Positions 588 to 916 of a stretch of 64,000 nt of DNA are shown in pieces; positions within the stretch are counted from its first letter, which is position 1, and each line of letters opens with the position of its first letter. The stretch is from assembly GCA_016787485.1 (NCBI GenBank), contig JAEUUL010000025.1, positions 64,496-128,495 on the forward strand. Direction: 5' to 3'. Below the pieces are notes generated by a model. It had not been told where the DNA came from and ran no database searches. It was given only the letters and a program-made list of their open reading frames with translations. This stretch comes from Bacteroidota bacterium. Its GTDB lineage: Bacteria > Bacteroidota > Bacteroidia > NS11-12g > UBA955. Position numbers and translations under genes: made by a program.

Positions 588-664
588 TGGTAGCGGGGAG
601 CAGGATCGAACTGCCGACCTCAGGGTTATGAATCCTGTGCTCTAACCATCTGAGCTACCCCGCC
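588..664 (-). tRNA. tRNA-Met (CAT anticodon), CCA encoded
   Basis: A 77-nt cloverleaf reads on the minus strand. Acceptor stem GGCGGGG pairs with CCCCGCT (position 1 is a G-T pair), the D stem is GCTC/GAGC, the anticodon stem is CAGGA/CCCTG with one A-C mismatch next to the loop TTCATAA, and the T arm is GGCAG TTCGATC CTGCT. The anticodon CAT lies at 628-630. The pairing at position 1 and the absence of three G-C pairs in the anticodon stem argue against the initiator tRNA, so this is elongator Met; a lysidine-modified tRNA-Ile(CAT) cannot be fully excluded by eye. CCA is encoded. Confidence 0.93.
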
Positions 665-801
665 AGGGGTTTTTGGGCGAAGATGCCATCTGAGTCCCGA
701 CACAACATCAAATCTTTGATTTGATAGTTGGTCGTGGACCCTCGACAGACTAAGCCGGAGTACCGGTGTAAGTCTCGTCGGGGCTACCCCGCCAGGAGTT
801 T
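654..801. repeat. tRNA-flanking direct repeat enclosing two long hairpins
   Basis: Nineteen bases starting at the tRNA 5' end (654-672, GCTACCCCGCCAGGGGTTT) recur at 783-801 with 18 of 19 identical, exactly 129 bases further on. Between the copies are two adjacent imperfect hairpins. Hairpin 1 (694-739) has 20 base pairs, three single-base bulges and a TTT loop. Hairpin 2 (740-782) has about 11 outer pairs with two single-base bulges plus an inner CCGG/CCGG stem. No protein gene is credible here. The layout suggests a small mobile or att-like unit, or a structured RNA upstream of the tRNA; I cannot assign it to a known family. Confidence 0.7.
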
Positions 802-916
802 GCAGGCCTTGGGCCCTGCAGTAAAAACTTTTGAAACAGTTAGGTACCCTTTCAAAAAACGAGGGTGCAAAGGTAAGTATTTTTCTATTCACTGCAATAC
901 CTCATTGCAGTTGGAT

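Follow-up and report, generated by a model that had tools for sequence, protein, structure and literature searches.

A nuclease-less double-hairpin unit in a tRNA-Met leader may belong to a selfish element of Bacteroidia tRNA genes

The tRNA-Met gene in the stretch of Bacteroidota DNA that we analysed (64,000 nucleotides, hereafter the window) is preceded by a broken copy of its own 5' end, and what breaks the copy is a pair of bulged hairpins. Comparison with other genomes leads us to think that this is probably a nuclease-less unit, non-autonomous or decayed, of a selfish element that lives in the tRNA genes of Bacteroidia. A wider proposal, which we put forward tentatively as possible rather than probable, is that these units represent an undescribed class of bacterial selfish element parasitising tRNA genes. 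Such an element would combine a double hairpin in the displaced arm with a small homing nuclease of the GIY-YIG type and a tRNA part whose duplication leaves the host gene intact, and would be accompanied by nuclease-less satellites that spread in tandem.

The starting point was a repeat. Nineteen bases at 654-672 (GCTACCCCGCCAGGGGTTT) match 783-801 (GCTACCCCGCCAGGAGTTT) at 18 of 19 positions with a spacing of 129 bp, just as an earlier note on this DNA had claimed; a rough estimate puts the chance of a comparable nearby repeat at about 1e-5. The two adjacent bulged hairpins that the earlier note placed between the repeats are also there, the first of them on the plus strand having 20 pairs and a 3-base loop. 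When the hairpin region is folded, both strands beat 200 of 200 dinucleotide shuffles (z of -6.7 for the minus strand and -5.0 for the plus strand). ARAGORN and Rfam agree on a tRNA-Met(CAT) at 588/591-664 of the minus strand and, because the gene runs from 664 to 588, the double-hairpin feature is its leader, about 200 nt long. What the earlier note lacked is the continuation: the tRNA copy resumes exactly past the hairpins (CTCAGATGG, 694-686), and so the hairpins interrupt a longer copy, bases 1-19 of the tRNA, split after base 10. On the minus strand the order is TACCTTTG, leader, GGCGGGGTAG, double hairpin, CTCAGATGG, spacer and intact tRNA. The features, all on the minus strand, are as follows.

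868 to 875, minus strand: probable -7 promoter motif TACCTTTG, from comparison with the syntenic loci L005-L010 and L033-L038
794 to 861, minus strand: remaining extended leader with a further small palindrome (TGCAGGGCCCAAGGCCTGCA), from the sequence
784 to 793, minus strand: upstream partial tRNA-Met copy, bases 1-10 (GGCGGGGTAG), within the 783-801 repeat, from the sequence and the repeat search
783 to 695, minus strand: double hairpin as a whole, 89 nt, from the fold and comparison with relatives
739 to 783, minus strand: hairpin 1, 45 nt, CCC-CGAC...GTCG-A-GGG, from the fold and comparison with relatives
695 to 738, minus strand: hairpin 2, 44 nt, TCC-A-CGAC...AAATCAAAGATTT...GTCG-GGA, the inverted counterpart of hairpin 1, from the fold and comparison
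686 to 694, minus strand: partial tRNA-Met copy resumed, bases 11-19 (CTCAGATGG), right after hairpin 2, an exact match
665 to 685, minus strand: spacer from the partial copy to the intact tRNA (CATCTTCGCCCAAAAACCCCT), from the repeat search
588 to 664, minus strand: intact elongator-type tRNA-Met(CAT) gene, from ARAGORN and Rfam RF00005
555 to 586, minus strand: probable terminator 3' of the tRNA (GCCGCCCCTTGTGGCGGC plus a T run), from the sequence

The end of the spacer resembles the flank of the upstream tRNA copy, and TACCTTTG is what we take to be the Bacteroidota -7 promoter motif. When Rfam models were run against the 64-kb window, tRNA was the sole match, and the double hairpin matched none. 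BLAST of the insert against its own genome found no second copy at the DNA level, because its relatives share its build and not its sequence. There is no GIY-YIG gene at the window locus or elsewhere on its contig.

That the leader is a gain can be read from sister genera. At the syntenic loci, which share a glycosyltransferase-like neighbour, the promoter equivalent TTTGCACCCTC directly abuts tRNA-Met with no leader insert; the layout is promoter, CCCTCAATT, tRNA, and the motif TTTGCACCCTCAATT runs straight into the tRNA. The window's tRNA-Met leader of about 200 nt has thus been enlarged by an insertion in the promoter-to-tRNA interval.

The earlier note had proposed a search for copies elsewhere, and the search was rewarded: double hairpins recur beside many tRNA genes. 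Among Bacteroidia, hairpin pairs of the same build sit in copies of tRNA-Met, fMet, Phe, Gly, Asp and His, and also of tRNA-Lys, Leu, Ala, Arg and an Ile-like tRNA. Searched for in 108 genomes of the order, the junction pattern TCGAGRGTYCWCGA has only six matches: one in the window, two in G078, two in G093 (at tRNA-Met and tRNA-Asp) and one in G038. Five of the six lie in tRNA leaders; the one in G038 falls within a KilA-N gene, in a MITE-like insert, and not in a tRNA. G078, from another family of the order, carries two tandem partial tRNA-Met copies, both with a two-hairpin insert at GGTAG^CTCAG. With a looser pattern, 20 matches came up in 8 of 395 genomes of the class, against three control matches, and nearly all were in partial tRNA copies. 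In the window genome these comprise a tandem pair of units before a second CAT tRNA and a single unit before the initiator tRNA-fMet, and in other genomes they lie at tRNA-His, Lys, Ala, Leu and an Ile-like tRNA. Double hairpins of the window genome occur not only at that second CAT tRNA and at fMet but also at tRNA-Phe, Gly, Arg and Pro. Pattern matches number 0 to 4 per genome, nearly all in tRNA copies. It is this recurrence that suggests mobility.

Two double hairpins stand away from any tRNA (in G038 and G789). The first (L125, on contig C59 of G038) belongs to an insert of about 250 bp, MITE-like, with terminal inverted repeats GAAGTYRTCTCAAAAA, which splits the KilA-N domain gene and carries a double hairpin of the same build. 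The second (L266, on contig C6 of G789) is likewise of the same build, has no tRNA nearby and sits in the loop of a GTCGGG/CCCGAG hairpin. Viral contigs gave 21 pattern matches, none of them a tRNA-linked double hairpin of the same kind, and plasmids gave no match to the double-hairpin pattern. The phylum-wide genome sample held few matches outside the class, and these, judged by the matched stretch (only the class match L266 was viewed in context), are unlike double hairpins. We judged the matches L128, L131, L132, L119 and L120 to be chance. The genomes are mostly drafts in which tandem arrays break off where a contig ends, as at C25 of G064, C13 of G462 and C30/C31 of G000, and the counts of tandem units are therefore lower bounds.

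The hairpins are part of a wider scarring of tRNA genes. Of the 31 tRNAs in the window genome, 11 have a partial copy of themselves alongside: eight by a strict score, in which the flank copy must beat all other tRNAs against the same flank, and three CAT tRNAs judged by eye (the window's elongator-type Met, the C7 tRNA and fMet), whose copies are split by the insert. The polarity in this genome is perfect, with 5' pieces only upstream and 3' pieces (about 55-75) only downstream. The pattern is also found at 3 of 23 tRNAs in G007 and, by the same score, at 7 of 28 in G162. Partial copies carry palindromes or double hairpins in their D-, anticodon- or T-arms, and an intact tRNA of the same kind stands beside those with a double hairpin. 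Tandem arrays of degenerate tRNA copies occur in G032, G078, G162 and G007.

Several other arrangements came to light around these copies. A second, 3' type of insert lies downstream of tRNA-Asn in G000 (L214), tRNA-Asp in G007 (L238) and a CAT tRNA in G162 (L260), where a common motif GAAGTTTATCCCG is followed by a hairpin ending CGGG, before the tRNA 3'-end copy. At tRNA-Phe of G162 (L250) the tRNA 3' end and terminator stand three times in tandem, each time with the T-loop replaced by the palindrome CCCCCGAGCACTCGGGG. Away from tRNAs, the perfect palindrome TCCCGATAGCTATCGGGA stands at one end of longer dispersed repeats in G000 (L199-L203), which have inverted ends CCACTTTTGG... or CCACCTTTTTTCG....

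For all their differences in sequence, the double hairpins conform to one consensus, [YYC-CGA...TCG-A-GRR][YYC-W-CGA...TCG-GRR]. The two hairpins are arranged in inverted fashion, each with a single-base bulge near its foot, and the apex is often AAATCnnnGATTT. Insertion is clean: at 10 or more loci the tRNA sequence stops and resumes with neither loss nor target duplication, in the D-arm at base 10, 12, 15, 18 or 19, or in the T-arm. The earlier note had also suggested looking for compensatory changes in the stems, and they are plentiful. There are 33 double-changed cells, compared with 10.5 +/- 2.3 in shuffles (none of 500 as high), and in 17 distinct stem feet 98.7% of cells are paired. Sliding the pairing partners destroys the signal, with slid controls far lower. 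The pairing of hairpin 1 counts as independent evidence, because its 5' arm lay outside the search pattern. Mismatches along the whole stems fall as 9 G-U and 10 A-C, with no G-U preference and no strand-specific one, which suggests a constraint on pairing in the DNA, or on both strands, and not on one RNA.

Where, then, might a nuclease come in? Small GIY-YIG open reading frames of about 75-200 aa adjoin tRNAs, often between an intact tRNA and its partial copy; one of 81 aa, for instance, lies beside tRNA-Arg at locus L157. Across 19 genomes, a tRNA lies within about 1.5 kb of 24 of 40 small GIY-YIG loci but of none of 19 long GIY-YIG genes, which match UvrC or polymerase subunits in size (p 3e-6); a partial copy of the nearby tRNA is present at 16 of the 40 and again at none of the 19 (p 0.001). 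The clearest layout is in G064, where a unit made of a tRNA-Arg 5' copy, a D-loop palindrome and a GIY-YIG ORF occurs twice in tandem before the intact tRNA-Arg, and the array ends, after the intact gene, with a tRNA-Arg 3' copy bearing a palindrome. By its layout the window unit looks like the G064 unit minus the GIY-YIG ORF. Three of the GIY-YIG proteins of the window genome give weak, sub-threshold matches only, all to a model of group I intron endonucleases. Partial copies and palindromes also occur at many sites with no GIY-YIG gene, and the link could therefore be indirect. One tRNA-Val locus of G000 was probably broken by assembly between the end of contig C30 and the start of C31: the C30 side (L198) has a tRNA-Val 3' copy with palindromes and a GIY-YIG gene, and the C31 side (L204) has the intact tRNA-Val and a 5' copy with a palindrome.

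From these layouts we infer a part for the nuclease in the following scheme. The GIY-YIG enzyme would cut tRNA genes or their hairpin arms, and repair from an occupied site would install the element together with the duplicated tRNA part, leaving the host with a functional tRNA. The palindrome would fill the loop of the displaced, now redundant, tRNA arm, where it might block re-cutting of the arm or recombination with the intact gene; alternatively, it may be a passenger with a preference for hairpin loops. The window unit, with its nuclease gene absent, would be carried passively in the tRNA leader as a relic or satellite.

Of the three readings offered in the earlier note, the one that fits best is the very small mobile unit with the tRNA as its target, in so far as recurrence speaks for mobility; an att-like scar and a structured RNA transcribed with the tRNA fare less well. 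The scar of an integrase-driven island at a tRNA gene seems very improbable. A direct repeat of tRNA sequence does flank the insert, but it is the 5' end with the leader that is repeated rather than the 3' end, the hairpins interrupt the copy internally, and the insert is only 89 bp, with the same pattern found in tandem. Most tRNA integrases use the tRNA 3' end. We regard as improbable a functional leader RNA that controls tRNA-Met processing, or a tRNA-like decoy for a tRNA-targeting toxin, although the insert lies between promoter and tRNA, is probably co-transcribed, folds strongly and keeps its stems by compensatory change. It is absent from the syntenic tRNA-Met loci of sister genera, double hairpins occur at many unrelated tRNAs and even 3' of tRNAs beyond the terminator, and G-U and A-C mismatches are equally frequent. 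The 5' strand of the copy has a weak tendency to pair with the spacer (z -2.9 over 19 loci), whereas the window's own closing stem does not exceed chance (p 0.51). These two values led us to discard the idea that the closing stem of a three-way junction is conserved in the RNA. In folding of the precursor, the upstream copy is predicted to compete for the acceptor stem, but we give this no meaning, as thermodynamic folding yields no cloverleaf even for the tRNA alone.

Two further explanations do without a homing element. In one, an IS200/REP-type (Y1) transposase moves palindromes that prefer loops, only inserts in redundant partial copies survive, and the GIY-YIG genes are separate residents. 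We consider this unlikely, though several observations favour it: tRNA arms are natural hairpins, clean insertion, bulged hairpins and an inverted doublet all suit it, loops of non-tRNA hairpins are also invaded (G038, G789), and Y1 genes are present in seven of seven genomes checked. REP/BIME sequences with their RAYT transposases are indeed alike in their bulged palindromes and inverted doublets (PMC3733652). They differ in that the Bacteroidia hairpins have few copies per genome, with none of the high-copy extragenic dispersal of REP/BIME, are tied near-exclusively to tRNAs and come with partial tRNA duplications and GIY-YIG genes rather than RAYTs (PMC3733652), and the duplications and the GIY-YIG link are just what a Y1 transposase leaves unexplained. 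Nor is there a consistent GTAG foot, as the TAG before hairpin 1 in the window is tRNA sequence and other insertion points read GAG, CAG, TGG, CTG, TTG or CGG. Neither of the two Y1 genes in the window genome has a double hairpin of the same type beside it. The other explanation, to which we give very little weight, has tandem tRNA duplications decaying and gaining genome-typical palindromes by replication errors, with no dedicated mobile element. The arrays of degenerate copies in four genomes speak for it, as does the presence of short palindromes, TCCCGATAGCTATCGGGA among them, in further repeats of the genome. Against that, different families have the same elaborate double hairpin at different tRNAs, a shared bulge pattern with covarying feet is not what replication error would produce, and the tie to GIY-YIG genes is strong.

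The nearest analogues of the proposed selfish element come, by likeness of layout, from mitochondria: fungal mORFs and double-hairpin elements. Fungal mORFs encode LAGLIDADG or GIY-YIG endonucleases and bring with them a duplicate of one end of the host gene, as in Allomyces atp6 and Glomus atp6, atp9, cox2 and nad3 (PMC3630166). As with mORFs, an endonuclease ORF lies beside a duplicated piece of host gene, and the inserted piece restores the gene while the native piece is displaced (PMC3630166); here this pairing of ORF and duplicate is found at sister loci and not at the window locus. Unlike mORFs, the host gene is a bacterial tRNA gene of which either end may be duplicated, the displaced piece bears palindromes, units are found in tandem, and many, including the window's, have no nuclease. 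Mitochondrial double-hairpin or repetitive hairpin-forming elements are known from Allomyces and sponges (PMC2800124), and share with ours two adjacent hairpins, low copy number, compensatory stem changes and absence of target duplication (PMC2800124). They are mostly intergenic or in genes, whereas those of Bacteroidia are near-exclusive to partial tRNA copies and have a different consensus with fixed single-base bulges; the likeness is one of analogy only.

Among phages, T4 has in its tRNA region a free-standing homing endonuclease of the GIY-YIG type, SegB. It is similar in being a GIY-YIG nuclease tied to tRNA genes and different in being phage-encoded, and we know of no partial tRNA copies with hairpins for SegB. 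A literature search in which subscription journals were thinly covered turned up no earlier description of such an element, and no account that links partial tRNA copies in Bacteroidota to GIY-YIG genes.

Integrases are known to target tRNA genes. To our knowledge, partial tRNA copies with palindrome-filled arms and homing-type nucleases have not been described in bacteria. If our reading is right, such parasites would have scarred roughly one in three tRNA genes in one genome (the 11 of 31), which would explain both the tRNA fragments and the small tRNA-adjacent GIY-YIG genes of Bacteroidota. The element would offer a direct test of how an essential gene can be invaded by a selfish one without death of the host, and it would be a bacterial counterpart of the mobile ORFs that duplicate gene ends in mitochondria.
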